The notes under the pieces are model-generated. The model searched no databases, was not told the DNA's origin, and saw only the letters and a list, made by a program, of their open reading frames with translations. From the NCBI GenBank assembly GCA_016617855.1, contig JAECUM010001818.1, forward strand, positions 1 to 64,000: 64,000 bases of DNA, in the 5' to 3' direction. Position 1 is the first letter of the stretch, and the number at the start of each line of letters is the position of its first letter. Below are positions 31,697 to 47,444 of this stretch, piece after piece. Position numbers and translations under genes: made by a program. The DNA comes from Megalonaias nervosa (lineage: Eukaryota; Mollusca; Bivalvia; Unionida; Unionidae).

Positions 31697-31713
31697 TTTG
31701 GGTTCTTCTTCTT

Positions 31714-32280: not shown

Positions 32281-32315
32281 TTTTCTTTTCCTTTTTATTC
32301 TGTGTAGAATGGCGC

Positions 32316-32372: not shown

Positions 32373-32394
32373 CTTACACTCACTTCACATATGA

Positions 32395-33205: not shown

Positions 33206-33247
<42 letters not shown>
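33206..33247. repeat. (CA)n microsatellite, left TIR
   Basis: CA run at the inner end of the minisatellite. The right TIR has a longer GT run in the same place. Confidence 0.95.
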
Positions 33248-33250
<3 letters not shown>

Positions 33251-33316
33251 CAGTAAAGAGTGAGTGTTTATAGTCACACTACACTACATTCACACGAATT
33301 GGCAAATTGAATAAGT

Positions 33317-33354
33317 TCTCTTTTCTAGAGATCTGGTTAGCCCTGAGAAGGGCT
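33317..33354 (-). terminator. histone-type 3' stem-loop and HDE, gene T2 left copy
   Basis: On the minus strand, AGCCCTTCTCAGGGCT (33,354-33,339) forms a perfect 6-bp stem. The loop is TCTC instead of the usual TTTC. TAGAAAAGAGAAC follows 11 nt downstream. Confidence 0.82.
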
Positions 33355-33368
33355 GTTTTTTTAAACTT

Positions 33369-33381
33369 CAGATGCACCTGG
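33369..33381. repeat. stop-proximal half of a T2 inverted repeat (left)
   Basis: On the T2 sense strand this 13-mer, directly after the stop codon, reads CCAGGTGCATCTG. It is the exact reverse complement of CAGATGCACCTGG near the T2 start (33,855-33,868), so the two ends of the T2 mRNA could pair. Confidence 0.8.
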
Positions 33382-33897
33382 CTAATGGTGACATCTCCCA
33401 GGGCAGGCACCACACACGCATCGCCGGCTCCAGTCCTGCTCCCAATTGATGCGTGTGGTTGGGAGCGCAGAGGGAGGTTGATTGGCTTCACTATCCCACT
33501 CCTCAGTTTGAGGGATAGTGAATACTTGTTCCCTTCTTCTTCTATTTAGCACCCTGGGATGCTGACGTCGAGGCTCCCACTCTTGCCTCTGTCTTTCCAA
33601 TTCCTCCTCCCAGTTTTCTGTTTGGAGGACAGTGACTCTTGGTACAGTTTGCCGTACTGCTACTGGTTGTGGAGGCGTTGTTGTCCTCACCTCAGGTTTG
33701 ACCTCACATTGAGGCCTAAGGAATAGGTGAGGTAGTATCCCTCGCTTCTTTTCCTTCTCCTCTTCTTTCTTCTTTTTTTCCTCCTCTTCCTTAAGTCTGT
33801 CACTTTCTGCAAGCGCCTCCATAGTCAGTTCATCCAGGAGACGCCTGGCATGCTCCAGGTGCATCTGGAGTTCTATTAGTTTTGTTAGTCTACTCAT
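33382..33897 (-). CDS. TIR gene T2, left copy: coiled-coil/disordered protein with CxC..CHH tail (171 aa)
   Basis: I recognise no family. The start is ATG 33,897, 54 nt after the TATA box. The N-terminal helix (MSRLTKLIELQMHLEHARRL) leads into a Glu/Lys coiled coil (about residues 35-52). A Pro/Thr-rich middle follows, then a basic RRRR-type patch (possible nuclear signal). The C-terminus is CVCGACPGRCHH, with Cys and His spaced as possible metal ligands. It is paired with 44,943-45,476. The last half of the protein is almost identical between copies while the first half differs strongly. The 3' end carries a histone-type stem-loop. A regulatory or nuclear role is inferred from context only. 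Confidence 0.8.
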   Translation of the reverse strand: MSRLTKLIELQMHLEHARRLLDELTMEALAESDRLKEEEEKKKKEEEKEKKRGILPHLFLRPQCEVKPEVRTTTPPQPVAVRQTVPRVTVLQTENWEEELERQRQEWEPRRQHPRVLNRRRREQVFTIPQTEEWDSEANQPPSALPTTRINWEQDWSRRCVCGACPGRCHH

Positions 33898-33939
33898 GTT
33901 GTTGCAGCTGCTACGTCAACGTGGGTAACCAGACTGACG

Positions 33940-33985
33940 ATCGCACCGATTTATATACTTGTAGCACGGACGTGAAAGTAAACAT
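33940..33985 (-). promoter_or_regulatory. promoter module of gene T2, left copy
   Basis: On the minus strand: TTTCACGTCCGTGCTACAAG, then TATATAAA (about 33,958-33,951), then CGTCAGTCTGG as a candidate initiator. Matches the module upstream of T1 and T3. Confidence 0.82.
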
Positions 33986-34240
33986 TCCCTAGCACTCAAA
34001 TTTACCATCACATGTAACACGCGGACTTAAAAGAAGCACTCACGTTGACTTTTTTACTTTTTACTTACAAACACAGGCAGACACGATTGGACAAGACAGA
34101 GAAACGAAGTGCTTATAGGCACACTTCTAATTTACTGTGAGTTCGTCAAAATACAAGTGAAAAGAAAAGAATCATTGCATCCGTTACGTCACCGATGTTG
34201 GAACCACTGGTACCTAAATGCTATAAGAGGATTGATTCTG

Positions 34241-34528
34241 ATGAAAGTGTTCCAGTGGTCAGACATTGATCAACTACTCGTGAGCAAGAAGAATTGTGTT
34301 GCTGATAGTGATTATTTTTACTACCAGGTACACTTACTGCATCGAATTCCAGATGAAGAGTTAGAGGGTTACCAAAATCTTGTACACAATGTAAACTTAG
34401 TTGAAGAGGAAACTTCTGAACGACGTGTGATGTGCAAGTTAGTGACTAAATATTTTAGATACGCCGACGGAATACGACCACTTCTGTGCAAAAAGTACAC
34501 TTATAGCAGCCGAAAAAAGAGGGTATAA
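34241..34528 (+). CDS. P1 small early-region protein E1 (95 aa)
   Basis: Not recognised. The start chosen is ATG 34,241, since the open frame extends upstream only from a GTG inside the TIR end. It looks all-helical, with a basic tail (SSRKKRV). The core SERRVMCKLVTKYFRYADG resembles WGRRVVCVLVTCFLGF in the next ORF, so the two appear to be tandem paralogues. A TATAAAAA box lies at the end of this ORF and serves the next. The compact helical size could fit a death-fold or Bcl-2-like host-interaction protein, but that is speculation. Confidence 0.6.
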   Translation: MKVFQWSDIDQLLVSKKNCVADSDYFYYQVHLLHRIPDEELEGYQNLVHNVNLVEEETSERRVMCKLVTKYFRYADGIRPLLCKKYTYSSRKKRV

Positions 34529-34540
34529 AAACGTTCTACC

Positions 34541-34768
34541 ATGCCACGACCTTTATCATTCGTGATACAACAGATTCCGTGGAAGGAAATCAATGACAGT
34601 ATTCAAACGGTAGGGGATTACCAACACCTATTACGAGAACTGTCTCCATTGAATTGGGGTCGACGTGTAGTGTGTGTCTTAGTGACTTGCTTTCTGGGAT
34701 TTCGTTTACCAGCTGATTCTTTGTGGACTCTTTACGAACGGTACCTATTACTCCAAAACAAAACATGA
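34541..34768 (+). CDS. P1 small early-region protein E2 (75 aa)
   Basis: Starts at ATG 34,541, only about 10 nt after TATAAAAA (34,524-34,531), so either the leader is very short or that box drives the following gene. The sequence MPRPLSFVIQQIPWKEINDS, then DYQHLLRELSPLNWGRRVVC. It shares a YQxLL...RRVxCxLVT core with E1. NWGR followed by SLWTLYERY superficially recalls Bcl-2 BH1/BH2, but the spacing is far too short for a firm call. It overlaps the next ORF at ATGA (34,765-34,768). Confidence 0.55.
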   Translation: MPRPLSFVIQQIPWKEINDSIQTVGDYQHLLRELSPLNWGRRVVCVLVTCFLGFRLPADSLWTLYERYLLLQNKT

Positions 34769-35016
34769 AAGTGATCCCTTTAAATGTCCACGAGAGACTC
34801 ATTCTGCTCAAAGCTTTGCGCTTTCATTTGGATACTTCTCAACCTCTACGGAAAAACAAGATTCGTCAACTTTTAGGCACTGAAGATGTGTACGACGACG
34901 TGTGTGTAGCTTGTGACTTACACCCTCACTGGACAGATGTACGTGACTGGAAAAGTTTGGGGTTTGAGGCTTGGGCTAAAGAAGTGGCACACTATGCCCA
35001 AGATTTGTCATCCTAA
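34765..35016 (+). CDS. P1 small early-region protein E3 (83 aa)
   Basis: Not recognised. ATG 34,765 overlaps the E2 stop (ATGA), a tight polycistron-like arrangement. It starts MKVIPLNVHERLILLKALRF and is predicted mostly helical, with an acidic/Cys middle (TEDVYDDVCVACDLHPHW). There is no membrane segment. It sits in the leftward unique region with E1 and E2, before a pair of AATAAA signals near 35,352-35,368. Confidence 0.55.
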   Translation: MKVIPLNVHERLILLKALRFHLDTSQPLRKNKIRQLLGTEDVYDDVCVACDLHPHWTDVRDWKSLGFEAWAKEVAHYAQDLSS

Positions 35017-35057
35017 AACATTAACACGTACCGTGAAAAAAAGTCACTTTTAAACCT

Positions 35058-35309
35058 GTGTTAGTGTCCATACCAGAAGAACAGTCTGTCACCGAGGAAA
35101 ACCACTCTCTTCAAGACAGGACTGTCATTGACATTCCTGAAAGACCATTTCGGGAGGACCCTTGTGTGACTGAACCAAGGAATGTACAGACTCTCAGAAC
35201 ATTACACACTACTCCTACGATTTCACCTCTTGATCACAAAAAATGTTGTACAGAGACTTGTTTATATTCCACTATGGTCGTTTTGTTGTGTTTTTATTCC
35301 TGTACTTAA
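35058..35309 (+). CDS. possible P1 protein E4, no ATG start
   Basis: An 83-codon open frame (after an in-frame stop at 35,034) with no ATG near its beginning. It reads SIPEEQSVTEENHSLQDRTV and ends with a short hydrophobic tail (STMVVLLCFYSCT). It may be a downstream exon, a frameshifted continuation, or not a gene. AATAAA at 35,352 lies just downstream. Confidence 0.3.
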   Translation: MLVSIPEEQSVTEENHSLQDRTVIDIPERPFREDPCVTEPRNVQTLRTLHTTPTISPLDHKKCCTETCLYSTMVVLLCFYSCT

Positions 35310-35351
35310 CCATATGGCTTTTATGTATTTTTGTCTTTCGTGTTGTTCACT

Positions 35352-35368
35352 AATAAAGATGACAATAA
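35352..35368 (+). terminator. poly(A) signals after the E1-E4 block
   Basis: Two AATAAA hexamers (about 35,352 and 35,363) lie between the small-ORF block and the ATPase promoter. Confidence 0.6.
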
Positions 35369-35384
35369 ACGTGTCCTGAAAAAG

Positions 35385-35392
35385 TATAAAAA
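35385..35392 (+). promoter_or_regulatory. TATA box of the P1 ATPase gene
   Basis: TATAAAAA 57 nt upstream of the ATPase ATG. Similar boxes precede many core genes: 36,193 (TATAAAAA), 36,962 (TATAAAA), 37,267 and 37,820 (GATAAAAG), 39,659 (TATAAAAA), 40,910 (TATAAAAG), 42,643 (TATAAAA). Confidence 0.7.
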
Positions 35393-35448
35393 CTCTTGTC
35401 TTGTCTGTCTTCGTGTCACAAGTGACATTTTATTACACTACTACTACT

Positions 35449-36177
35449 ATGGCTACCTCTACTGTCTCTGCTCCCTCTTCCTCCACTGTCAAAGTCATTG
35501 ACGAACACGTAGATCGGACTAGTTGGGAGGCCTTGTATCTTCGCCATCCCTTTAACATGCTTATTGCTGGACCTAGCGGTTCAGGCAAAACCGAATTTGT
35601 CAAACGTTTGATCGAACATAAACATCATTTGATCGATCGTCCTCCTCAACGAATCGTGTGGTGCTATAAAGAGTGGCAATCGGCGTGCAGCCTTCTGCGA
35701 GAAAGTCAAGGCGATTCCATCGTCTTTGTGGAAGGCATTCCTGTCGAAGACGACGGAATCGTGTCTGACCCTAGTCAAACTCATTTGGTTATTTTTGACG
35801 ACATGTTAGGAGAAGACGAAGAAGAAATTAAACTCTGGTTTACGCGCAAAGGGCATCATCGTAATGCCAGTGTCATTTACATTACCCAAAATTTGTTTCA
35901 ACAAAGTAAAGCCCATCGTACCATCAGTCTCAATGCTCATTACTTGGTGTTGTTTAAAAGCCCTAGAGATAAATCGCAAGTACAAGTCTTAGCCAAACAG
36001 TTAGGAACGCCTTGGCTGATTCATGCGTACGACGATGCCACTCAAACCCCACACGCTTATTTACTCGTGGATTTAAAATCCACTACTCCCGATTATTTGC
36101 GATTTCGTACCCATCTGTTTCACCCCTGGTGCCAAGACGGAGGACCTATCGTGTACACGTCTCCGTCGTCGACTTAA
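35449..36177 (+). CDS. P1 packaging ATPase (FtsK/HerA-A32 type, 242 aa)
   Basis: Genome-packaging P-loop ATPase of the Polinton/adintovirus set, which in relatives pumps DNA into the capsid. The Walker A motif GPSGSGKT is at about residues 40-47. Walker B is THLVIFDDMLGEDEEE. An arginine/sensor region follows with VIYITQNLFQQSKAHRTISL. Length is normal for the family. The start is ATG 35,449 (MATSTVSAPSSSTVKVIDEH); the frame extends upstream only without ATG. The gene is intact. It is diverged from the P2 ATPase at 63,331, showing separate lineages. Confidence 0.93.
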   Translation: MATSTVSAPSSSTVKVIDEHVDRTSWEALYLRHPFNMLIAGPSGSGKTEFVKRLIEHKHHLIDRPPQRIVWCYKEWQSACSLLRESQGDSIVFVEGIPVEDDGIVSDPSQTHLVIFDDMLGEDEEEIKLWFTRKGHHRNASVIYITQNLFQQSKAHRTISLNAHYLVLFKSPRDKSQVQVLAKQLGTPWLIHAYDDATQTPHAYLLVDLKSTTPDYLRFRTHLFHPWCQDGGPIVYTSPSST

Positions 36178-36237
36178 TCACCCCAAAAAATCTATAAAAA
36201 CCTCGGTCACTTGGACTCTGTCTCACACATTGTCAAC

Positions 36238-36966
36238 ATGACGTCCCTTCAGTCTCATCTTCCCATTAAATTGATTCGTGCCTTGTACGGCATCAGTCGC
36301 GAAAAAAATCCACAAATACGTGCTCGTGTCTTAGAAGCTAGTCTCAAAGAAGTCTTACGATGGTTTACGGTGACAGCACGTCAATTACTGCAAGGCATCA
36401 TTCAGATTCCACATCAAACCAAACGTTTTTTTGAGAGAAACAAAGTTGCCTTGACGCAACTAGCCGATCCTCGCATCGACACTCAAACCAAAAAGCAAAT
36501 CATTTTGAAACCTGGAGGAAGTGGATCTTTAGGAGGTGTCATCATTCGTTCCCTCTTAAAATGGGATCCTAATGCTCCCAAAGTTGTCCCCAAGAAAAAA
36601 GCCACACCCAAACGTACCCAGAAGAAAAAGAAAAAGAGCAAGGGTGTCAAGACCAGGTCACAACCTCAGAAAAAGAAAAAGAAAAGCCCACAGAAAACAG
36701 CTTTTACTCGCAAGAGAGTGTCTCCAACAACTTCTCCTCCAGCAGTGACACCCTCTTCCTCTTTAGCGGCAGTAGCCGCGGCTCACAAAGTACCTGCCCC
36801 CAAAGTCAAAGTCCAAGAGAGAACGGGTGTGTTACAGAGTTTACTGGATTTGTCCAAGCAAGAACTGTCTCGATTTAGTCCGTTGCGAACTCCTCCACGG
36901 CGTGTGTTGCCTGTCATCAAGTTGATACGACGTAAAGACAATCAGTGGCGACGCATTCCAGTATAA
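36238..36966 (+). CDS. P1 X-like protein with long basic tail (242 aa)
   Basis: The N-terminal 100 residues follow the adintovirus X pattern: helix (ASLKEVLRWFTVTARQLLQG), then IPHQTKRFFERNKVALTQL, then KKQIILKPGG. The gene at 37,348 has the same order (ASKDVIDTVCECCLNVLKGT, LSKHQKECLGKHRHVLRQM, KKKMLVQRGG), so they look like paralogues. Residues about 118-160 are extremely Lys-rich (KKKATPKRTQKKKKKSKG) and histone H1-like. A Ser/Pro/Ala stretch and a basic C-terminus follow. A DNA-condensing virion core protein is the likely role (inference). The start is ATG 36,238, 38 nt after TATAAAAA. Confidence 0.75.
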   Translation: MTSLQSHLPIKLIRALYGISREKNPQIRARVLEASLKEVLRWFTVTARQLLQGIIQIPHQTKRFFERNKVALTQLADPRIDTQTKKQIILKPGGSGSLGGVIIRSLLKWDPNAPKVVPKKKATPKRTQKKKKKSKGVKTRSQPQKKKKKSPQKTAFTRKRVSPTTSPPAVTPSSSLAAVAAAHKVPAPKVKVQERTGVLQSLLDLSKQELSRFSPLRTPPRRVLPVIKLIRRKDNQWRRIPV

Positions 36967-37024
36967 AATGACCTGAGGCAAGCCATACGGATCAGTATTT
37001 TTTTGTGCTACTGCACGTCCAAAG

Positions 37025-37255
37025 ATGTTCCCTCCAAGAAGTGTACACCGTTACCATCGTCGTTCTTCTTCTTCGGTCCAAAAAGGAAAAGGAAAACGAA
37101 AAAGACAGTCACGTCATCCTAAGAAGCGCTTAGTCAAACATCGACGTCACCCCCAGAAAAGGCACACTCGTCCAAAGAAAAAGAGGAGTCACCAAAGAGG
37201 AGGATTCTTTGGTGATTTTGGAAAACACATCGTCACCTTTATGACAAAGCGATAG
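37025..37255 (+). CDS. P1 protamine-like basic protein (76 aa)
   Basis: A very basic small protein (KGKGKRKRQSRHPKKRLVKH, then HRRHPQKRHTRPKKKRSHQ) ending in RGGFFGDFGKHIVTFM. Basic residues followed by an RGGF-hydrophobic tail recall adenovirus pX/mu and pVII-type core peptides that condense virion DNA. Starts at ATG 37,025, 56 nt after TATAAAA (36,962), which overlaps the stop of the previous gene. Confidence 0.72.
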   Translation: MFPPRSVHRYHRRSSSSVQKGKGKRKRQSRHPKKRLVKHRRHPQKRHTRPKKKRSHQRGGFFGDFGKHIVTFMTKR

Positions 37256-37347
37256 TCCCCCAAAAGGATAAAAGACCGTGCGACAAGTCATTGACGTTAG
37301 TGAATTTTTTGTTGTATGCCACGGAACCAACAAACCCACTGAGAAAG

Positions 37348-37799
37348 ATGTCACCCCAAAAAAGACATTCCTCTTCTACCTCCAAAGGAAAGAAAAGGAA
37401 AGGACTGCCACCTCGTTTAGCCAAACATTGGGACATGTTGTCCGTCCTGTCCAAAGCTCCTTCACCCATGCGAAAAAACTCATTCAAACAGCCTCCAAAG
37501 ATGTTATTGATACCGTGTGCGAATGTTGTCTGAATGTCTTGAAAGGCACAATACCTTTGTCTAAACACCAGAAAGAATGCTTAGGCAAACATCGACACGT
37601 TCTTCGTCAAATGATCCAAAAGAAAATACCTATTCGTCAAAAGAAAAAGATGTTGGTGCAACGCGGAGGAATTTTACCCTTTTTACCCATGTTACTGAAA
37701 GGAGTCATGGGTACAATAGGAGGACCCTTACTGAAAGGAGTCATGGGAACAATAGGAGGACCCTTGCTGCAAGGAGTATTGGGAAACATGGGAGGATAA
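37348..37799 (+). CDS. P1 X protein (adintovirus/Polinton pX-like), frame-broken
   Basis: The conserved part lies in one frame from about 37,440 to 37,799. It has helices, then LNVLKGTIPLSKHQKECLGK, RHVLRQMIQKKIPIRQKKKM and LVQRGGILPFLPMLLKGV, the hallmark of adintovirus X proteins (basic, then a GGxLPxLLP hydrophobic segment). The only ATG-initiated N-terminus (ATG 37,348, basic MSPQKRHSSSTSKGKKRKG) is in another frame, so an apparent single-base loss lies around 37,440-37,480. The C-terminus carries a duplicated KGVMGTIGGPLL unit plus a third variant, from a tandem DNA repeat at about 37,690-37,780. Probably a membrane-active or core minor virion protein. Confidence 0.72.
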
Positions 37800-37871
37800 A
37801 GATCAAAAGGACCAAGAAGATAAAAGGGACCTCTGAAATCAAAAGATCTCAGACGTGATCCTTGAAATCTG

Positions 37872-38561
37872 ATGGAAGGACGAAAACTAGCTTTAGTCCC
37901 TTACAAACGATGGATGGAATACCATCGTTGGCAAGAACAACGAACCCCACATTTACCTCCCAATCCTCATTTGACCGAGATGTCCCAGATACAACACGAA
38001 CTGCAATCGTTGATGGATCGCAGCGATTTGTCAGAAACGGAAAAATCGCAACGGTACGGACAGTTGTTGCAACGACTGCAACTCTTTCACCAGCAAGCTT
38101 TAGACGAAACAGCTCCACCCACTCTGAAAGATTTTAAGGCCTTGATGAAAAGTCCATCACCACCACCACTACCACCACCACCAGCGGTCAAGACAGACAC
38201 AACCCCACGAAGGCCTGAGGAAGAAGAGGCACGAGAAGTTTTTCAAACACCGTCAGCAGCTCCCATTCCTAGTAAGATTGCAGCGTCCTTGTTGACCCCT
38301 TCCCCTACACCGCAACGAGAAGAACTTAAAGCTTGGGTTAAAAAGATGATGTCTACTCCACCTTCGACAGAGGTGAAAAAGAAAGAAGGGAAACCAGAAG
38401 TGAAAAAAGAAAAGAAGACCAAAGCCATTCCATTACCACCACCTTCACCACCACTACCTTCCACTTCTACGCCCGTGGCACATCGGACACGTAAGACCGT
38501 TTCCAAACCACCCCCTCCTTCCATTCCGACTAGCATTCGTGAAAATTGGATCACTTATTAA
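37872..38561 (+). CDS. P1 proline-rich protein with LVPYKRW start (229 aa)
   Basis: The N-terminus MEGRKLALVPYKRWMEYHRW has the short LVPY/LVPxxxY motif seen at the start of a protein commonly found next to X and integrase in Polintons. A helical part follows (LMDRSDLSETEKSQRYGQLL). The rest is low complexity: polyproline (PSPPPLPPPP), Lys/Glu and Ser/Thr/Pro. The end is SIRENWITY. Function is unknown; it may be a scaffold or a minor virion protein. It is intact and ends 3 nt before the integrase ATG, suggesting co-expression. Confidence 0.7.
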   Translation: MEGRKLALVPYKRWMEYHRWQEQRTPHLPPNPHLTEMSQIQHELQSLMDRSDLSETEKSQRYGQLLQRLQLFHQQALDETAPPTLKDFKALMKSPSPPPLPPPPAVKTDTTPRRPEEEEAREVFQTPSAAPIPSKIAASLLTPSPTPQREELKAWVKKMMSTPPSTEVKKKEGKPEVKKEKKTKAIPLPPPSPPLPSTSTPVAHRTRKTVSKPPPPSIPTSIRENWITY

Positions 38562-38564
38562 AAC

Positions 38565-39673
38565 ATGGAGAAGGTGTTAACCAGCATTTACTACGATCCA
38601 GCTCATCCTGCAGGTTACGGAGGAGTTCAGAAATTGTATCGTGCTGCCAAAACTCGACTGAAAAGTATCCGTTTACCTCAGGTGCAACGCTGGTTACAAG
38701 AACAAGCCACGTACACCTTACACAAACCCATTCGACGAAAATTTTCCAGAAGTCGCACCCAAGTGGAGGGTATCGATCACCAATGGCAAGCCGATTTAGC
38801 CGATGTCTCTCATTTAGCCACCTACAATCGTGGCTACAAATATTTGTTTTGTGTCATCGACGTCTTTTCCAAATTTGCTTGGGTCGTACCATTGACTTCC
38901 AAATCGAGCAGTGAGTTAGTGCGAGCCCTCAAACTGGTGTTGAAACAAAGTGGTCGTCACCCTCTTCGATGGCAAACGGACAAGGCACCGAATTTCTAAA
39001 CCAAGCTTTCCAAAGAGAATTGAAGAAACGTGACATTCATTTTTCCACCACGGAGAATCCCGAAACCAAAGCCAGCATCGTGGAACGTTTTCAACGTACC
39101 TTGAAAGAACGCATGTGGAAATATTTTACGCATCAACACACTCTCAAGTACATTGACGTCTTGCCACACCTCGTTCAATCGTACAACCAATCTTACCATC
39201 GGAGCATTGGACGTGCCCCCCAAGAAGTGACTCCCGACAACGAAGTGACCGTCTTCGAGCGCCTGTTTGGACCGTCCACGACAGTGCCTGTCCCCAAGAA
39301 AGGTGGAGTGTTGGCCACGGGAGATTGGGTACGCATTGGCAAAACCAAACGCACTTTCGACAAAGGTTACTTACCCAATTGGACCACCGAATTGTTTCGT
39401 GTCACTGAACGTGTGCGTGGTCGTTATCCTCCCGTCTATAAATTAGAGGACATGAACGGGGAAGTGTTAAAAGGAACGTTTTACTTACCCGAGTTACAAC
39501 GTGTGACCAAAAAAGAAGACGACGTGTACGAGATCGAAAGCATTCTCGATCGAAGAACTCGTAAAGTAGGAAAGAAACGTGTCAAAGAAGTCAAAGTACG
39601 TTGGAAAGGATATCCTCCCAGTTTTGACTCTTGGATCGACGCTTCGCAACTCATCGACTATAAAAAGAAGTGA
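38565..39673 (+). CDS. P1 integrase (retroviral-type DDE, chromodomain), frame-broken
   Basis: Catalyses insertion of the element. N-terminal GYGGVQKLYRAAK and WLQEQATYTLHKPIRRKF are typical of Polinton integrases. The rve core follows: first Asp in WQADLADVS, with FCVIDVFSKFAWVVPL after it; second Asp in QTDK at about 38,982; third residue Glu in SIVERFQRTLKERMW. A C-terminal chromodomain shows as YEIESILDRR, then KVRWKGYPPSFDSWID. The frame changes at about 38,985, within the second catalytic Asp motif, by an apparent single-base loss. No stop codons lie elsewhere. The P2 integrase (61,870) is clearly different. Confidence 0.9.
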
Positions 39674-40078
39674 CCATCCTGCCCTTCAACACAGTCTCAG
39701 CTACTGCAGTGACCACTCCTTCCCCCAGTTCTTCTCTGCAAGATCTACAAAAACAACCCTTGTGGGTGTGGTGTGGAGAACGTGTGCCTAAAACGCAAAT
39801 CGTCTTTTTCTGCCAAATCTTTGTGGTGTATTGTGTCATCGGTGCTGCCATTGCCAATTTGAGTTTGCAACAAGGATAAACAATTGTGGACCATTTTACT
39901 CAGCAGTTGCATTGGTTACCTTCTTCCCAATCCGTCTCTGAAATATTCCTCTAACGGAAACAACAACAACGGGAGTCTTGTGTCCAACGTCAGTTCCAAC
40001 AGTCACCCTAACCATCCTCTTTTAGACACTCCTCACACTTCCAGTGACTCCTCGGATACTAGAACTGTGGAATTATGA
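39670..40078 (+). CDS. P1 small membrane protein, frame-broken
   Basis: First part (39,670-39,879): PLWVWCGERVPKTQIVFFCQ followed by a hydrophobic membrane segment (IFVVYCVIGAAIANLSL). Second part in another frame (39,884-40,078): WTILLSSCIGYLLPNPSL and a Ser/Asn-rich tail. In related Polintons these two blocks occur in one protein between integrase and penton, so an apparent single-base insertion near 39,875 splits it. There is no ATG at the start (GTG 39,670), so initiation is uncertain. TATAAAAA at 39,659 is just upstream. The role is unknown; a virion membrane or assembly protein is possible. Confidence 0.65.
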
Positions 40079-40994
40079 ACAACCAATTTTACTTAACGTT
40101 ACCCAGTGACAGTTCCATGGAGGTGTTTCCCAATAACACTTTGTGCTGTTTCTCGGCCAAATTACCTCAGGCCATCCGATTGGATCACGACGCCCGTTGG
40201 GAAGTGGCTTTGGTAGAAATTATTCACCCTACACAAATCAAAAACATCGTCGAAAATCAAAACACTTTGACGATAGAAGTTTGTGACGATCAAGTGCAAC
40301 AAGTCATGGATGAACGCGCTAGTGGTGGTGGTGTAGCTGACTTTATCAAAACACCAAACCCCATAACTAAACGAACCACTTATCTGTTGAAAGTTCCTGC
40401 AGGTTATTATTTTAGTGGTCAACATTTGGTGAACACCATAGCTGAGAGGTTCAATTTCATGTTTAGTAAAGCTTTGGAGAAAGCCAAAAAAGTGTCACAA
40501 TCGAGTACCACAAAATATCTCGTCGCCTACTGATGAAATTTTCTGAGGACAAAATATTGGCCATTACATTTTGTCCTGAATTGTATCACATTTTGGGTGG
40601 AGACCCTAAGTTAATCAAGATTGCAAAAGAAATACCAGCCGTGACCAGTAACGTGGATTTTGCGAAATATTTTCGATTCCCTGTAGAAATGAACCTAGGA
40701 CTGAATTTGATTTTTGTGTACTCCGATGTGGTGGAGTACAACGTAGTGGGACACACCTCCGTACCGTTACTGCGTGTCATTCCTTTCAAAGTGGATTCTG
40801 CCACGAGGGCTGACGAGGAAGGTGGAAACACCTATCACGTTCACCGTGAATTTGTAAATCCTCACTATTTGTCCGTCAGTAAGCCGTATTTCGACACTGT
40901 CAACATTACTATAAAAGGAGATCTGGGGCAAAATATTCCATTCACCAAAGGGAAAGTCACAGTGAAACTCCATTTTCGAAAACGATTACTCTAA
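40075..40994 (+). CDS. P1 penton / minor capsid protein, frame-broken
   Basis: Single jelly-roll vertex protein of the Polinton/adintovirus capsid. The N-terminus FYLTLPSDSSMEVFPNNTLC and WEVALVEIIHPTQIKNI match the penton pattern LPSxxS..FPxNT..F...L...W.VALxE. The first frame ends at 40,533. The second starts there and continues with LAITFCPELYHILGGDPKLI and the terminal VTVKLHFRKRLL. The change is an apparent single-base loss just before 40,533. The ATG (40,075) overlaps the previous stop as ATGA. Confidence 0.78.
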
Positions 40995-41007
40995 CTTTTT
41001 GTCAGTC

Positions 41008-41448
41008 ATGTATCCTGTGTACCAAGGAGTTGCTCGACAGCGAGGACATGGTTTAGGTGATATGCTCAAATCGGCCTTTCGTACAGTGGTTCCCATTTTG
41101 AAACCGATGGTGACACGAGGATTGCACGCCTTAAAAGATGCCGCGTTGACGCAAGGTAAAGAATTTCTCCAAAATGTCATCATTGACAAACAAAGCCCCA
41201 AAGAAGCTTTCTTGAGAGCAGGCAAAAATGTTTTGCTTCAAACGGGCAAAGACCTTTTGGGTCGGCGAGAAACTCCTATAAATGCCCTGGGCAATGCTGA
41301 GTTAGGCATTCCTGCTTCCCTGAGGCCACAGCAAGGACAAGGCAGAAAAAGACGACGAAAACACCCTTTCAGAGGACTTCACGCCCCTAGAGCTAGAAAG
41401 ACAAAGACAAGAAAAACCGTCCGAGAGTTAGACGTTTTTGATTATTAA
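41008..41448 (+). CDS. P1 pVI-like minor virion protein (146 aa)
   Basis: The start is ATG 41,008 (MYPVYQGVARQRGHGLGDML), about 90 nt after TATAAAAG (40,910). The pattern VYxGxxxQRGxGxGxxL..FRxxVPxLKP, then KxxLxxGKxxLxxV and a Lys/Arg-rich tail (GRKRRRKHPF), is typical of the adintovirus/Polinton protein likened to adenovirus pVI/pX. That protein is packaged under the capsid and may act in membrane disruption. It is intact and lies directly before the MCP. Confidence 0.78.
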   Translation: MYPVYQGVARQRGHGLGDMLKSAFRTVVPILKPMVTRGLHALKDAALTQGKEFLQNVIIDKQSPKEAFLRAGKNVLLQTGKDLLGRRETPINALGNAELGIPASLRPQQGQGRKRRRKHPFRGLHAPRARKTKTRKTVRELDVFDY

Positions 41449-41457
41449 AAAAGGAAA

Positions 41458-42778
41458 ATGATGCACCGAGAGTCTTGTGCTTGTTCCAAGTCGGAACTGG
41501 ATCTGTTTGCCATGCCACCCACCATGATGACGATGCAAGAATCCCAATGGGTGGAATTTCATCCCGTCTCCTCTTTGGTGGATTCCGCTCCCATCGAGTT
41601 TGAAATCAAAGGACAGCCCGAAGATTACATCGATCTGAATAATAGTTACTTGTATCTAAAGCTGAAAGTGATCAAAACCGACAACACCAATCCGGGAGCC
41701 GATGCCGCAGTAGCTCCCGTCAACAATTTCATGCATTCCTTGTTCAGCGAAGTGGATTTGTACTTGAATAACAAACTGATCAGCAGTAGCACGGATACTT
41801 ACCCTTACCGAGCGTACCTAGAAAATCTCTTGACGTACGGAAAAGAGGTCAAGAACACTCATCTGGATGCTTGCGTGGTATGGAAACCTGACACCGCGGG
41901 TGAGAACACGTTTAACGACAGAGCCCTGACAGCCGATGACGATCCTCACAATGTGGGTTTTAACGATCGTCGAAGGAAAATCCTGCAAGGTCGTAGTTTA
42001 GAACTGATGGATCGTTTGCATTTGGACATGTGGTTGCAAGAGAAGTATTTGCTGAACGGAGTAGATATTCGCCTGAGACTCAATCGCAGCAGTGTCGCTT
42101 TCCATTTGATGGCTCAAACCAACGAGTACAAAACCATCATCCAAGAAGCCAGACTTTACGTGCGACGTGTAGAAGTGTTACCTAAAGCGGGAAACGACAT
42201 CAGTCAAACATTGAGCAGATCGACCGCCAAATATCCGATACGACGTGTCGAAGTGAAAACATTCACCATTGCTGCTGGACTCCGATCCAAGATCGAAGAT
42301 CATCTGTTCCAAGGACAGTTACCCAAACGTTTAATCGTTGGTATCGTCAGTAATGCAGCCTTCAACGGAGCCCACGATCAAAATCCTTTCCAGTTTAAGC
42401 ACTACAGAGTGTCCAAAATTGAAGTCAGTCGCGATGGCAAGACTTTGTGTACCAGACCCTTCGAACCTAACTTTGCCCAGAAGAATTACTTGAGATCGTA
42501 CTTGTCCCTGTACGAAGCTACGGGGCAACTAGGAACCAACGCCAGTCACGGTATTTCGTACGAAGATTATGTCAGGAGGTTACACTTTGTGGGCCTTTGA
42601 TTTCACTCCAGACCAAGGCAGCGACGAGGGACATTTCCACCCTATAAAATCCGGTCAACTGCGTGTGGAACTTCAGTTTGCAGAAGCTCTCACTGAGACG
42701 GTCAACGTCATCCTGTATGCTGAATTCGATAATACCATAGAAATCAACAGTTTGAGAGAAGTCATTCTAGACTATTAG
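41458..42778 (+). CDS. P1 major capsid protein (double jelly roll, hexon-like), frame-broken
   Basis: Forms the icosahedral shell. The N-terminal segment (ESQWVEFHPVSSLVDSAPIE, then YIDLNNSYLYLKLKV) and FMHSLFSEVDLYLNNKLISS are strong Polinton/adintovirus MCP signatures. Later come LHLDMWLQEKYLLNGVDIRL and LPKRLIVGIVSNAAFNGAHD. The C-terminus (GYTLWAFDFTPDQ to VILYAEFDNTIEINSLREVI) is in another frame after about 42,565-42,575, an apparent single-base insertion. Total size is about 440 residues, close to family size. There are no internal stops. The start is ATG 41,458. Confidence 0.92.
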
Positions 42779-42783
42779 ACACA

Positions 42784-43290
42784 ATGGAAGACTCCTATCC
42801 CTCTTTAAACAGTGGAGAATCTTTGGACATGGAATGGGAGGATAGCGTGAAAACAGAACCCCAAGACGAAGTCAAAGAGGACGAGGTAGTCGTCAAGTCC
42901 AGATGGCCAGAACAAGAACAACATTTAGTGTCCTGTTTTGCTAAACACCTAGCGAATACAATTACGGAATTGTCCAAGAAATATTGTTATGGATGTCAAA
43001 ACGATCATCCCAGTCAAATTCAACACGATAAATGTATGATGATGAGTCAAGAAGAAAAATTGGACGAGTATCTGGACGACGCTTGGAGTCTCATCTCAGA
43101 AGAAACCGTGTTGCATGAGTGGTATAAAGGCTTGCGTGATCATTCCTGTCCTCCATTGACTACTCTAGAGATCTATCGCATCGAAGCTCTCTTAGCCCAG
43201 AGTGCGGAGACAAGGCAAAGAAACGGATACTTGACAGATCGTTTCAAACAAAAAGTCAGAATTGAATTGATGACTTATCATTACCTGTGA
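42784..43290 (+). CDS. P1 Polinton protein with CxxC..H..C cluster (168 aa)
   Basis: The start is ATG 42,784. The N-terminus is acidic (EWEDSVKTEPQDEVKEDEVV). The centre has CYGCQNDHPSQIQHDKCMM, a Cys/His cluster with possible zinc ligands, in a form I associate with a conserved but uncharacterised Polinton protein near the MCP and protease. The C-terminal half is helical (LISEETVLHEWYKGLRDHSC). Intact. KTEP also resembles a SUMO-attachment type motif, which may be fortuitous. Confidence 0.7.
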   Translation: MEDSYPSLNSGESLDMEWEDSVKTEPQDEVKEDEVVVKSRWPEQEQHLVSCFAKHLANTITELSKKYCYGCQNDHPSQIQHDKCMMMSQEEKLDEYLDDAWSLISEETVLHEWYKGLRDHSCPPLTTLEIYRIEALLAQSAETRQRNGYLTDRFKQKVRIELMTYHYL

Positions 43291-43315
43291 AAAAAAAAAA
43301 ACAACACAACAGAAA

Positions 43316-43873
43316 ATGGATACCTGGGAACTTTATTACCTTTTGAACAATAGTTCGTATACTGCTTCTTGGAATCCTGTCGTGTGCGCTAAAGATGAAC
43401 TACCTCATCGCAAACCTAAAGACCATCAAGCTTATGTCATCAACACGGACGAAAGTCATCTTCCAGGCACTCACTGGGTTGCCGTCTACTTCCCTCAAGA
43501 GAATTGTGTGGAATATTTTGATTCGTATGGATTACCCCCTTTGGAAGACGATATCATTGACTTTATGAGAAGAAATGCCCAGACGACACGATACAATAAT
43601 GTGAAATTACAAGGCACAGATTCCATGGTGTGTGGACAATATTGTGTATATTTTCTTCATCAACGCAGTCTTGGATATCCTTTAGAACATTTGGTGACTT
43701 ATTTTGATCGTCACTCTTCTAGAAACGATGAGAAAATAGATCGATGGTTTTGTGACCATTATAGTTATCTTTTGTCTTTAGCTAGGAAACGTGGTGTACA
43801 TCAATGGCCTCATGACTTCCATCAATGGAAATCTCACATGATTTCACAACGTTGTCAACCTTGTCAAAAATAA
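43316..43873 (+). CDS. P1 adenain-like cysteine protease (185 aa)
   Basis: Maturation protease of the Ulp1/adenain (C5) family that cleaves virion precursors. The catalytic His is in GTHWVAVYFPQ, the Asp/Glu position in CVEYFDSYGLPP, the oxyanion Gln in KLQGTDSMVCGQYC, and the nucleophile Cys in MVCGQYCVYFL. Length is typical. The start is ATG 43,316. Intact. It is the last gene of the rightward core block and is followed by AATAAA at about 43,926. Confidence 0.93.
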   Translation: MDTWELYYLLNNSSYTASWNPVVCAKDELPHRKPKDHQAYVINTDESHLPGTHWVAVYFPQENCVEYFDSYGLPPLEDDIIDFMRRNAQTTRYNNVKLQGTDSMVCGQYCVYFLHQRSLGYPLEHLVTYFDRHSSRNDEKIDRWFCDHYSYLLSLARKRGVHQWPHDFHQWKSHMISQRCQPCQK

Positions 43874-43935
43874 TTTGTTTGATGTTACTTGTTACTTGTG
43901 ACTTATGACTTGTTACTTGTTACTTGAATAAAAAA
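43874..43935 (+). terminator. 3' end of the P1 core block, AATAAA
   Basis: A TTACTTGTTACTTG-type repeated 3'UTR leads to AATAAA at about 43,926. No other AATAAA was noticed between 35,400 and 43,900, so the core genes may be 3'-co-terminal. Confidence 0.65.
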
Positions 43936-44057
43936 TGTTGTGTTTTGAAAAAAAAATGTGTCTGTCGTTTGTTTTCAAAAAACACTGTGAATATATGCTC
44001 TTTGACTTCTTTCTATCCCTCATCATGACATTCGCTATCATAGCGTTCCGACACTAA

Positions 44058-44125
44058 AACCGAGTAGGGATGTTTTCTATCGCGTCCGCGTTTGAACCAT
44101 ATAAAGCGGGTGGGTCTCCAGTCTG
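44058..44125 (+). promoter_or_regulatory. promoter module of gene T3
   Basis: GGGATGTTTTCTATCGCGTC, CGCGTTTGAACC, then ATATAAAG (44,099-44,106) and CCAGTCTGACC as initiator. It is a diverged version of the T1/T2 module. Confidence 0.7.
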
Positions 44126-44151
44126 ACCATTCACTGTTGACTCGTCAACCT

Positions 44152-44521
44152 ATGAAGATGCCTTCCAGACTAGCCCAGCTGAACGAAGCTTACGTCAATT
44201 TACATCGTGTCAGGCTAAAACCTGATACCGAAGCCTGAAGAAATAGAGAATGTTAGGATGCTCTCCACAGTCCAAGGTCTGATAGAAGAGATGTTTAGAG
44301 AGGAAATTAAAAAAGAACAAGAAGAATGGACTGAGAAATACAGACTTCAGAAGAAGCAGAGAGAAGAACAACAACAACAGCAACAGCAGCAGCAAGAACC
44401 AGACAGAGGTTTTGTGGACTGTCGAGTAGACACCAAAGAATTCTCTTTCTCTTTTCGCAGAAGCAGACCGTATCCAATAGGAAAGCCTACTGCCAGACGG
44501 GGACGCAATCTTAGACAGTAA
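44152..44521 (+). CDS. gene T3, paralogue of T2, frame-broken
   Basis: ATG 44,152 opens a 28-codon frame (MKMPSRLAQLNEAYVNLHRV) resembling the T2 N-terminus (MSRITKLLELQMHLEYARRL). The rest is in another frame (ATG 44,258 to TAA 44,521): LIEEMFREEIKKEQEEWTEK, a polyglutamine run (9 Q), and a basic tail (RRSRPYPIGKPTARRGRNL). The 3' flank (stem-loop, then TCATTCAATTTGCCAA) matches that of T2. An apparent one-base shift lies around 44,230. Unlike T1 and T2 it lies just inside the right TIR and is single copy. The polyQ tract is encoded by mixed CAA/CAG codons. Function unknown. Confidence 0.65.
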
Positions 44522-44556
44522 AAAAAGATTGCCATTACTTCCGTGAACACAAAAAC

Positions 44557-44593
44557 AGCCCTTTTCAGGGCTACCCAATACTCTCGAAAAGAC
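44557..44593 (+). terminator. histone-type 3' stem-loop and HDE, gene T3
   Basis: AGCCCTTTTCAGGGCT (44,557-44,572), a perfect 6-bp stem with TTTC loop, is preceded by ACAAAAAC and followed by ACCCA, exactly the histone consensus flank. CGAAAAGAC follows 12 nt later. It lies 36 nt after the stop. Confidence 0.92.
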
Positions 44594-44628
44594 ATACTCA
44601 TTCAATTTGCCAAAATTTGTCATTAGAA

Positions 44629-44662
44629 AATAGAAGTGTGTCTATAAGCACTTCGTTTCTTT
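44629..44662. repeat. extra copy of the TIR inner-end motif
   Basis: TAGAAGTGTGTCTATAAGCA followed by CTTCGTTTCT repeats the inner end of the right TIR (44,711-44,743) with one change. An A-rich spacer separates the two. The core AGTGTGCCTATAAGCACT is an imperfect palindrome. Confidence 0.75.
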
Positions 44663-44849
44663 TGTCAGTAAAACAAAATATTTGTGTGTTTGTATGTTTA
44701 AAAAAAAAAATAGAAGTGTGCCTATAAGCACTTCGTTTCTCTGTCTTGTCCAATCGTGTCTGTCTGTGTTTGTAAGTAAAATGTAAAAAAGTCAACGTGA
44801 GTGCTTCTTTTAAGTCCGCGCGTTACATGTGATGTTTAGTTTTGGGGCC

Positions 44850-44910
44850 AGGGAATGTTTACCTTCACGTCCGTGCTACAAGTATATAAATCGGTGCGAT
44901 CGTCAGTCTG
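44850..44910 (+). promoter_or_regulatory. promoter module of gene T2, right copy
   Basis: GGGAATGTTTACCTTCACGT, CCGTGCTACAAG, TATATAAA (44,883-44,890), then GTCAGTCTGG initiator (about 44,902-44,911). The same layout as for T1 and T3. Confidence 0.85.
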
Positions 44911-44942
44911 GTTACCCACGTTGACGTAGCAGCTGCAACAAA

Positions 44943-45476
44943 ATGAGCAGAATAACAAAACTACTAGAACTCCAGATGCACCTGGAATATGCCAGACGGT
45001 TGCTAGATGAGCTGGCTATGGAGGCTTTAGCCGAAGAAGCCAGGCTTGAAGAGGAGGAGAAGAAAAAGAAAGAAGAGGAGATGAGAGGGATCCTACCTCA
45101 CCTCATGCTAAGACCTCTGTGTGAGGTCAAGCCTGAGGTGAGGACGCCTCCACAGGCAGTAGCAGCACCACAACAAAGACAGCCACAACCTCTGCCGCCA
45201 GTAACACCAGTACCAAGAGCCGCTGTCCTCCAGACAGAAAACTGGGAGGAGGAATTGGAAAGACAGAGGCAAGAGTGGGAGCCTCGGCGTCAGCATCCCA
45301 GGGTGCTGAATAGAAGAAGAAGAAGGGAACAAGTGTTCACTATCCCTCAAACTGAGGAGTGGGATAGTGAAGCCAATCAACCTCCCTCTGCGCTCCCAAC
45401 CACACGCATCAATTGGGAGCAGGACTGGAGCCGGCGATGCGTGTGTGGTGCCCGCCCTGGGAGATGTCATCATTAA
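44943..45476 (+). CDS. TIR gene T2, right copy (177 aa)
   Basis: Paralogous copy of 33,382-33,897. The N-terminus is MSRITKLLELQMHLEYARRL, followed by a Glu/Lys coiled coil, and a Pro/Gln-rich middle that is longer and differently composed than on the left (PQQRQPQPLPPVTPVPRAAV). Then comes a nearly identical C-terminal half with an RRRRR patch and CVCGARPGRCHH. The left copy has one more Cys (CGACPGRC). Open from ATG 44,943 to TAA 45,474-45,476. No family is recognised. The contrast between the diverged first half and the conserved second half points to gene conversion between TIRs or to selection on the N-terminus. Confidence 0.82.
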   Translation: MSRITKLLELQMHLEYARRLLDELAMEALAEEARLEEEEKKKKEEEMRGILPHLMLRPLCEVKPEVRTPPQAVAAPQQRQPQPLPPVTPVPRAAVLQTENWEEELERQRQEWEPRRQHPRVLNRRRRREQVFTIPQTEEWDSEANQPPSALPTTRINWEQDWSRRCVCGARPGRCHH

Positions 45477-45489
45477 CCAGGTGCATTTG
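45477..45489. repeat. stop-proximal half of a T2 inverted repeat (right)
   Basis: CCAGGTGCATTTG directly after the stop can pair with CAGATGCACCTGG at 44,973-44,985. The single difference from the left copy (C to T) still allows a G-U pair in RNA. Confidence 0.75.
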
Positions 45490-45503
45490 CAGTTCTAAAA
45501 AAC

Positions 45504-45543
45504 AGCCCTTTTCAGGGCTAACCAGATCTCTAGAAAAGAGAAC
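45504..45543 (+). terminator. histone-type 3' stem-loop and HDE, gene T2 right copy
   Basis: AGCCCTTTTCAGGGCT (45,504-45,519), 6-bp stem and TTTC loop, preceded by AAAAAAC and followed by AACCA. TAGAAAAGAGAAC starts about 12 nt later. It lies 27 nt after the stop codon. Confidence 0.92.
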
Positions 45544-45607
45544 CTATTCAATTTGCCAATTCGTGTGAATGTAGTGTAGTGTGACTATAAACACTCACTC
45601 TTTACTG

Positions 45608-45608
<1 letters not shown>

Positions 45609-45684
<76 letters not shown>

Positions 45685-45710
45685 TGTGTGTGTGTGTGTG
45701 TGTGTGTTTG
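45609..45710. repeat. (GT)n microsatellite, right TIR
   Basis: About 100 bp of GT with one TC interruption, longer than the matching CA tract in the left TIR. Confidence 0.97.
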
Positions 45711-45714
45711 CATG

Positions 45715-46325
45715 CACGTTCGTTGGTGAGAATAGTATATTGTGTGTGTGTTTTATGCTTGCTCGTTCGTTGGTGAGGATAGTATATTGTGTTTTATGCT
45801 TGCTCGTTCGTTGGTGAGGATAGTATATTGTGTGTGTGTTTTATGCTTGCTCGTTCGTTAGTGAGGATAGTATATTGTGTGTTTTATGCTTGCTCGTTCG
45901 TTGGTGAGGATAGTATATTGTGTGTGTGTTTTATGCTTGCTCGTTCGTTGGTGAGGATAGTATAGTGTGTGTGTGTTTTATGCTTGCTCGTTCGTTGGTG
46001 TGGATAGTATATTGTGTGTTTTATGCTTGCTCGTTCGTTGGTGAGGATAGTATATTGTGTGTGTTTTATGCTTGCTCGTTCGTTGGTGAGGATAGTATAT
46101 TGTGTGTGTTTTATGCTTGCTCGTTCGTTGGTGAGGATAGTATATTGTGTGTTTTATGCTTGCTCGTTCGTTGGTGAGGATAGTATATTTGTGTGTTTTA
46201 TGCTTGCTCGTTCGTTGGTGAGGATAGTATATTGTGTGTGTTTTATGCTTGCTCGTTTGTTGGTGAGGATAGTATATTGTGTGTGTGTTTTATGCTTGCT
46301 CGTTCGTTGGTGAGGATAGTATATC
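45715..46325. repeat. minisatellite between T2 and T1, right TIR (about 14 units)
   Basis: The unit GCTTGCTCGTTCGTTGGTGA followed by GGATAGTATATTGTGTG and TTTTAT is 40-50 bp with variable GT length. Fewer units and fewer variant types than in the left array. Frames across it are artefacts. Confidence 0.93.
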
Positions 46326-46344
46326 ATATGTGAAGTGAGTGTAA

Positions 46345-46405
46345 GGCATGTTTTCCTTCACGTCCGTGCTTGAAGTATATAAAAGCATAGCGTTCGTCAT
46401 TCGCG
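46345..46405 (+). promoter_or_regulatory. promoter module of gene T1, right copy
   Basis: GGCATGTTTTCCTTCACGTC, CGTGCTTGAAG, TATATAAAA (46,376-46,384), then CGTCATTCGCG as initiator. It decides the T1 start: translation must begin downstream, at ATG 46,438. Confidence 0.85.
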
Positions 46406-46437
46406 CCATTCTACACAGAATAAAAAGGAACAGAAAA

Positions 46438-47004
46438 ATGGATTTAATCAACAAGTTAAGAGATAGTTGGTGCTGGATGGTAGATGCAGTCTATGTAGTG
46501 GAAAAACTTCAAAAGAAGTGGAGGTTTCAAGTTAGCCTAGACTTTATGGCGAGACTCAAAGCAGCAAGTTATCATTTGCAAATGATAATAATGGAAGAAG
46601 CAGATAAGTTGAGAGGTTTCAACTATCCGAAATATGTGAGAGTAGGAACCTTGAAGAAGATTTTGGATATTGTTGTTGAATTGGAATCTTTTTTGGAAGG
46701 TATCTTCTCTTTAACAGAATGGCCTTTTGTCAAAAAAGGCTTAGACAATATCAAGAAAGCGGAAGACCTAATGAGAAAAGTACTGAAAGAAGAAGTGGAA
46801 AAGATCAAGGAAACGTGGAAGAAAGAAAGAAAGGACAAAGAAAACCAAAAAAAGAAAGAAGAGTTTGAGAAACTAAATCAGAGCTGGATGAAAATCCAAC
46901 AAAAATTCAGAGCTCTCGGACATCCTGACTGGATGCCCGAAGAAGAAAAGAAGAAAGGAATTATTCAAAAAGTCAGGACATGGTGGAAGAACTGGAGAAG
47001 ATAA
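46438..47004 (+). CDS. TIR gene T1, right copy (188 aa)
   Basis: The same protein as 31,714-32,280 with about five or six residue changes. MDLINKLRDSWCWMVDAVYV, a helical domain to about residue 115, a Lys/Glu-rich coiled coil (KKERKDKENQKKKEEFEKLN), then a basic aromatic end (VRTWWKNWRR). There is no signal peptide or membrane segment, and no recognised family. Both copies are open, which suggests that the protein mattered until recently. The stop TAA (47,002) is 17 nt before a perfect histone-type stem-loop. Confidence 0.82.
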   Translation: MDLINKLRDSWCWMVDAVYVVEKLQKKWRFQVSLDFMARLKAASYHLQMIIMEEADKLRGFNYPKYVRVGTLKKILDIVVELESFLEGIFSLTEWPFVKKGLDNIKKAEDLMRKVLKEEVEKIKETWKKERKDKENQKKKEEFEKLNQSWMKIQQKFRALGHPDWMPEEEKKKGIIQKVRTWWKNWRR

Positions 47005-47021
47005 AAGAAGAAGAACCCAAA

Positions 47022-47059
47022 GGCCCTTTTCAGGGCCACTTCCAATACCTCGAAAAGAT
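47022..47059 (+). terminator. histone-type 3' stem-loop and HDE, gene T1 right copy
   Basis: GGCCCTTTTCAGGGCC (47,022-47,037) is a perfect 6-bp stem with TTTC loop, preceded by CCCAAA as in animal histone genes. CGAAAAGAT lies 13 nt downstream (from 47,051). Confidence 0.93.
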
Positions 47060-47117
47060 CTTAATTTTCATTTGGTCTCCACCCTAAACGAATATATATA
47101 AAACCCTTCCTCTACTA

Positions 47118-47145
47118 AAAAACACGAACGCTCTTGATTCGTGTT
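47118..47145. repeat. short inverted repeat in the right TIR
   Basis: AACACGAA and TTCGTGTT enclose a 9-nt spacer, preceded by a TATATATAAA stretch. The same pair is present in the left TIR near 31,572-31,596. A cruciform or protein site is possible; function unknown. Confidence 0.55.
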
Positions 47146-47171
47146 TGTCTATAACCCTCTCTCAGGTAGCC

Positions 47172-47221
47172 TGACGTCACAGTACTTCTCTTTTTGCTAC
47201 ATTGTTACCAGTGTGACGTCA
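47172..47221. promoter_or_regulatory. two CRE palindromes (TGACGTCA) in the right TIR
   Basis: TGACGTCA at 47,172-47,179 and 47,214-47,221, matching the pair in the left TIR. Confidence 0.6.
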
Positions 47222-47264
47222 TGCCACCTGTCGCTTATCGCTCTACAAACCCACAGTATACTAG

Positions 47265-47395
47265 TCGCTCTACAAAATTTCCATTGACGCTATACAGGCC
47301 CAGGGTGTTCTAGTCCCTCTACCTAATTTTCCATTGACGCTATACAGGCCCAGGGTGAGATTTTATTTCTTGACGCTATACTGGCCCAGGGGGGG
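47265..47395. repeat. P1 right subterminal repeats
   Basis: CCATTGACGCTATACAGGCC followed by CAGGGTG occurs twice, with a third variant ending CTGGCCCAGGGG. Mirrors the left subterminal array with one unit fewer. Confidence 0.75.
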
Positions 47396-47444
47396 GTCTG
47401 TAATGCTAATTCCCATGGACGCTACGGTAACCCCATATACTACT

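Follow-up and report, generated by a model that had tools for sequence, protein, structure and literature searches.

The DNA analyzed here, referred to as the window, is a stretch of 64,000 nucleotides (nt) from the bivalve Megalonaias nervosa (contig JAECUM010001818.1, positions 1 to 64,000). It contains a Polinton-type mobile element with terminal inverted repeats, in or adjoining which lie copies of three small genes, T1, T2, and T3; T1 and T2 are present twice each, as inverted-repeat duplicates. Each of the five gene copies is followed, soon after its stop codon, by a hairpin of the type that ends animal histone mRNAs and then by a purine-rich block, and this pairing of hairpin and purine block is confirmed by our analysis (Table 1). 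An earlier note on this DNA had reported the five hairpins, and all five were recovered at its coordinates and on its strands.

Hairpins, purine blocks, and promoter motifs of the T genes

The Rfam Histone3 covariance model (RF00032), run with permissive filters among 4227 families, matched all five sites on the strand of the gene, with E-values from 7e-7 to 0.012 across the 4227 families. This was the search proposed in the earlier note, and its outcome is divided: every hairpin matched the model, and one of the five exceeded the gathering score of 34 bits. No Histone3 match with an E-value of up to 5 was found in the rest of the window (1–31000 and 47300–64000), which therefore serves as a negative control. 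Histone stem-loops have a 6-bp stem with a G-C second pair; here the second stem pair is G-C in all five hairpins, the 6-bp stem is complete in four, and three hairpins have A-U and two G-C as the outer pair. The folding energy of the four hairpins other than that of left T1 is −9.0 to −11.4 kcal/mol. The letters quoted in the earlier note were exact at 44557, 45504, and 47022 and departed by one base at the other two sites, left T1 (31681–31696), which reads GGCCCTTTTCAGGACC, and left T2 (33339–33354), which reads AGCCCTTCTCAGGGCT and has the loop TCTC instead of TTTC. Of the 3′ flanks, which it described as ACCCA- or ACCA-like, only that of T3 reads ACCCA; that of T2 is AACCA and that of T1 ACTTC.

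The hairpins are more frequent than chance would predict. With up to three mismatches allowed, the 16-nt pattern matched six times, vs. 0.83 expected, and none of 100 shuffles reached six; the sixth match, at position 810, is a stray with three mismatches. A strict hairpin pattern, composed after the sites had been seen, matched four times (left T1 fails), each time beside a purine block, and 300 order-2 Markov windows yielded 0.03 strict hairpins per window and none with a purine block.

The purine block takes the form GAAAAGA after all five hairpins, at a gap of 13–14 nt from the stem, a narrower range than the 11–14 nt first claimed, and GAAAAGA was not found within 120 nt after any of the 13 other stops of the element. 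The core of the mouse U7 RNA, CUCUUU, pairs with AAAGAG of the histone downstream element (HDE), and histone pre-mRNA is cleaved 4–5 nt 3′ of the stem (PMC7026596). A cut at that distance would here fall between stem and purine block. Measured against the mouse U7 core, which may differ from that of the host, AAAGAG is matched at six of six letters in T2 and at five of six in T1 and T3. The distance from stop codon to stem is 17 nt in T1, 27 nt in T2, and 35 nt in T3, and neither AATAAA nor ATTAAA occurs within 500 nt downstream of any of the five T-gene ends. Among the structural genes, an ATTAAA lies 88 nt beyond the ATPase stop, and an AATAAA stands at the end of the forward structural block.

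The T genes also share a start signal. The pattern CGTCCGYGYT-N2..14-TATAAA, likewise composed after the sites had been seen, has five exact matches on both strands of the window, one upstream of each T gene copy, and a larger block surrounding the motif aligns across all five copies. The TATA box lies 51–62 nt before the ATG, the T3 ATG having been picked by eye. A TATA-like word occurs within 200 nt upstream of six of the 10 structural open reading frames (ORFs) checked, and CGTCCG, unaccompanied by the remainder of the motif, upstream of one of the 10, that of the presumed capsid protein; neither the shared promoter motif nor a histone-type hairpin was found at the structural genes. Judged by these motifs, the terminal-repeat genes are a class with common start and end signals, and the presence of both signals on the same genes is as expected for a co-regulated class.

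Table 1. Features of the Polinton-type element and its terminal-repeat genes in the window (aa, amino acids)
Feature	Position	Strand	Remarks
Polinton-type element	31220..47444	.	inverted repeats; ATPase, integrase, protease; ends set by eye from AGTAGTATA / TATACTACT
Inverted-repeat arms of the element	about 31220-34133 and 44707-47444		from repeat comparison
T1 left, 188 aa	31714..32280	-	tblastn 97% to T1 right
T2 left, 171 aa	33382..33897	-	tblastn 80% to T2 right
T3 longer reading frame, 87 aa	44258..44521	+	from ORF list
T2 right, 177 aa	44943..45476	+	nine homologues
T1 right, 188 aa, basic, predicted helical	46438..47004	+	nine homologues; structure model
T1 left histone-type stem-loop	31681..31696	-	one broken pair; RF00032 23.6 bits, below gathering
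T2 left histone-type stem-loop	33339..33354	-	loop TCTC; RF00032 26.1 bits, below gathering
T3 histone-type stem-loop	44557..44572	+	RF00032 31.9 bits, below gathering
T2 right histone-type stem-loop	45504..45519	+	RF00032 24.7 bits, below gathering
T1 right histone-type stem-loop	47022..47037	+	RF00032 34.9 bits over 47017-47062, above gathering
HDE-like GAAAAGA, T1 left	31660..31666	-	gap 14 nt from stem
HDE-like GAAAAGA, T2 left	33319..33325	-	gap 13 nt; exact AAAGAG core
HDE-like GAAAAGA, T3	44586..44592	+	gap 13 nt
HDE-like GAAAAGA, T2 right	45533..45539	+	within AGAAAAGAGAA; gap 13 nt; exact AAAGAG core
HDE-like GAAAAGA, T1 right	47052..47058	+	gap 14 nt from stem
Promoter motif, T1 left	32335..32357	-	CGTCCGYGYT-N-TATAAA
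Promoter motif, T2 left	33950..33972	-	CGTCCGYGYT-N-TATAAA
Promoter motif, T3	44083..44105	+	CGTCCGYGYT-N-TATAAA
Promoter motif, T2 right	44868..44890	+	CGTCCGYGYT-N-TATAAA
Promoter motif, T1 right	46361..46383	+	CGTCCGYGYT-N-TATAAA
AATAAA, likely poly(A) signal of structural genes	43927..43932	+	54 nt past protease stop, end of forward structural block

Candidate histone-type 3′ processing of T1–T3 mRNAs and its rivals

We consider it probable that the mRNAs of T1–T3 undergo histone-type 3′ processing, the structural genes likely being served by ordinary polyadenylation. The earlier note had proposed that the element hijacks the processing of histone mRNA, a proposal that is supported in part: the match to the hairpin model, the HDE core, its spacing, the position of the hairpin after the stop codon, and the lack of a nearby poly(A) signal give a histone-type 3′ end good support at the level of sequence. 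Host stem-loop binding protein (SLBP) would likely bind the hairpins of T1, T2, and T3, and the host U7 small nuclear ribonucleoprotein (snRNP) would likely engage the purine-rich block; the T pre-mRNAs would be cut between the two, a few nucleotides past the stem, leaving mRNAs without a poly(A) tail. Such mRNAs would be stable during S phase, when SLBP is abundant, and would then decay, the T proteins thus being made while the host nucleus replicates its DNA. The structural genes would likely be polyadenylated in the ordinary way, with one AATAAA available at 43927. S-phase timing of T1–T3 is what we infer by analogy, and it follows only if the rules for histone mRNAs hold for those of the element. 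Cnidarian histone genes with a stem-loop and a purine-rich element and without a poly(A) signal are expressed in S phase only (PMC5011920), and the level of SLBP increases about 20-fold in that phase (PMC12775136).

A broader reading, which we offer tentatively and at somewhat less than even odds, is that the element took over a histone-style programme as a whole, with promoter block, stem-loop, and U7 site, so that unrelated T proteins would be made from poly(A)-minus mRNAs in S phase alongside the histones and structural genes would be expressed by ordinary polyadenylation; one T protein, basic and helical, would perhaps package DNA. The poly(A)-minus stem-loop end is treated, in the sources cited, as the mark of animal replication-dependent histone mRNAs (PMC12775136 and PMC5011920). 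If the reading is true, nonhistone genes of a mobile element would be a natural experiment on the effect of the signal itself, a nuclear DNA parasite would be timing its expression to host replication by host signals alone, and there would be a simple sequence mark by which to recognize genes of this kind in further Polintons and adintoviruses.

The resemblance to known histone 3′ ends is close in several respects. The metazoan histone mRNA 3′ end, as represented by RF00032 and the HDE, shares with the T genes a 6-bp stem, a 4-nt loop, a stem soon after the stop codon, a purine-rich block (here 13–14 nt on), a short untranslated region, and the lack of a close poly(A) signal. The T genes differ from metazoan histone genes in that neither T1 nor T2 matches a Pfam family, that all three sit in a mobile element, and that most of their hairpins score below the Rfam cut-off.

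How far the five sites count separately depends on their origin. T1, T2, and T3 have mutually alignable 3′ blocks, GAAAAGA included, and T2 and T3 also share the stretch ATTCAATTTGCCAA; therefore a single cassette was copied. Stem, spacing, and purine block persisted through the divergence or replacement of the coding parts, which argues for use.

Several findings weigh against histone-type processing. Four of the five hairpins fall short of the gathering score (23.6–31.9 bits), and the unrelated family sR52 appeared at an E-value of 0.017 in the same Rfam scan, so the two weakest hairpin sites are not decisive by themselves. The stem of left T1 has one pair broken and folds at −4.2 kcal/mol, vs. 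−11.4 kcal/mol for right T1. As copies of one cassette, the sites are not independent events and weigh less than five. Covariation is confined to one pair, and 57 of 500 shuffles equaled the observed score. AATAAA and ATTAAA are also absent within 400 nt of nine of 11 structural-gene stops, and because of this their absence is a weak mark of the T genes; read-through transcripts could make use of an AATAAA at 46419, which lies 943 nt beyond T2 right. In the bivalve Lucina, histone mRNAs have the stem-loop, but purine-rich elements were seen close to it in just a subset of the genes, and at different spacings (PMC6210712). No Histone3 match was found in a second Polinton part of the window, of which not both ends are in view. 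Divergence between the arms was tried as a gauge of constraint on the hairpins and was dropped because it is too patchy to show constraint: in T2, 29 of 138 ungapped positions differ at the gene start (a count inflated by indels), four of 162 in the tail, six of 74 in the 3′ block, and one of 70 further on, and in T1, 11 of 567 differ in the gene and two of 61 in the 3′ block.

Unlikely in our view is a passive relic, a histone 3′ end acquired in a single event and carried along as the repeats spread, on mRNAs that are now polyadenylated elsewhere. The alignment of the three cassettes, the broken or split genes of this copy, the damaged left T1 stem, and the AATAAA after T2 right would all suit a relic, but stem, spacing, and purine block have been kept though T1, T2, and T3 can no longer be aligned in their coding parts, and pairing is still full in four of the five stems. 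It is also quite unlikely that the hairpin is a transcript end or poly(A) signal peculiar to the element, like the hairpin common to Sputnik and Mimivirus, and goes unread by the histone machinery. There is precedent in the virophages, kin of Polintons: Sputnik and Mavirus use the promoter of their helper, a late promoter, and Sputnik also the hairpin poly(A) signal of its helper (PMC6723459), and promoter motif and hairpin are coupled in the present element as well. However, the letters of stem, loop, and flank fit the histone model, the hairpin is missing from the structural genes, and a generic hairpin would have no use for a U7-type purine block at a near-constant distance. Sputnik is the closest mobile-element parallel, Sputnik and Mavirus being mobile elements that bear signals for transcript start and end taken from another expression programme; the difference is that the end signal here matches that of the histone genes of the host animal and not that of a giant virus.

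The hairpins lie in or adjoin the terminal repeats, as they might if they were mainly RNA decoys for SLBP, or a DNA palindrome acting in replication or packaging, and not mRNA ends. We regard this as very improbable, since strand and position track the genes at all five sites, the purine block is always downstream, and the T3 site is outside the repeat arms. Chance resemblance to the histone signal is the least probable of the explanations, at close to negligible odds. The subthreshold scores would accord with it, as would the small E-values that low-complexity DNA of the window yields for other families (e.g., mir-297 at 3e-6), but the hairpins are not low-complexity, the Markov windows held 0.03 strict hairpins each and none with a purine block, and the rest of the window gave no Histone3 match.

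T proteins, the element, and its relatives

T1 is a basic protein (isoelectric point of 9.65, and above 8.7 in nine of nine T1 homologues) whose structure model consists of helices (predicted local distance difference test [pLDDT] of 78) and has no fold match in PDB at an E-value of up to 0.001. The model of T2 is mostly of low confidence (pLDDT of 66). The T2 proteins (45435–45476 in the right copy; homologues P0130–P0138) share a near-invariant cysteine-rich C-terminal tail, RCVCGARPGRCxH, which perhaps binds metal. A Pfam scan that covered T1 and T2 gave no match for either, and neither fits a histone. The earlier note had held the T1 and T2 proteins to be unrelated, and profile comparison agrees (hhalign probability of 1.4%); the longer T3 frame showed no relation to the T2 profile. 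The T3 gene is split over two frames, the short one beginning at about 44151 (by eye). The ratio of nonsynonymous to synonymous substitution rates between the arms comes to about 0.24 over the 188 codons of T1, with 11 nucleotide differences, and to about 0.17 over 165 aligned codons of T2, with 50. The source contigs of the T1 and T2 homologues reach 684–1511 bases at most. A degenerate TG-rich tandem unit (TATGCTTGCTCGTTCGTTGG...) forms long arrays at 32394–33215 and 45609–46324, separating T2 from T1 in each arm.

The terminal inverted repeats of the element are 93% identical across 1675 columns (BLAST). Pfam scores above cut-off were obtained for rve (37.3 bits), Chromo (38.9 bits), and Pox_A32 (32.4 bits), and the adenain-like protease matched Peptidase_C5 at 17.3 bits, under the Pfam cut-off of 21.3. 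The integrase has a chromodomain, and its coding sequence is split between two frames. The ORF at 41458–42600 (380 aa) is the presumed major capsid protein, a label that comes from relatives named "F54H12.2-like," a name linked with Polinton capsids; no meaningful match to this protein was found in Pfam or PDB. Its 120 listed relatives are mostly about 400–475 aa long, and the present copy is therefore likely truncated. The closest, among the matches listed, are 95, 86, and 78% identical, and the nearest animal-named ones, among the same matches, are from bivalves: Mercenaria (55%), Ostrea (48%), and Crassostrea (46%); these matches point to a mollusc as the likely host. No target-site duplication was seen by eye at 31220/47444, where a short tandem repeat flanks the element on the right. 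With Polintons/Mavericks and adintoviruses the element shares inverted repeats, an A32-like ATPase, a chromodomain integrase, and, less certainly, an adenain-like protease and the presumed capsid protein. It differs from them in the histone-type ends of its terminal-repeat genes and in that no DNA polymerase B (PolB) was found in the 16 element ORFs scanned, a subset of frames in a decayed copy.

Protein-based scans of viral contigs found no relative of the element. Loci from pattern scans of viral contigs (1 and 8) were taken as chance matches: L001 and L010 gave no Histone3 match, and the seven further loci gave a single weak, stem-only match (L005, 21.3 bits, E-value of 0.26). A scan of genome contigs found two short ones (L002 and L003) that encode proteins distantly related to the presumed capsid protein and have no Histone3 match. 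Searches of a partial, open-licence library turned up no account of Polintons or adintoviruses with histone-type 3′ ends, and the term "stem-loop" is absent from the main text of two preprints from 2024 that deal with these viruses (PMC11071296 and PMC11071308). In the former, an adomavirus of a Tegillarca clam dataset is said to have a histone-like "Histoid" gene alongside adintovirus-like virion proteins (PMC11071296), which may be a further connection of histones with viruses of clams.

Elsewhere in the window, the second Polinton part (56957–64000, minus strand) is divergent and decayed and is cut by the window end. It includes a weak PolB match at 57283–57858 (15.3 bits, below cut-off), an integrase at 61871–62709 that is 28–37% identical to that of the first element, and an A32-like ATPase at 63334–63999. 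A retroelement reverse transcriptase (RVT_1), split across two frames, lies at 55347–56783 on the plus strand, and a pair of direct repeats outside the element, 14157–14800 and 18405–19037, is 74% identical.

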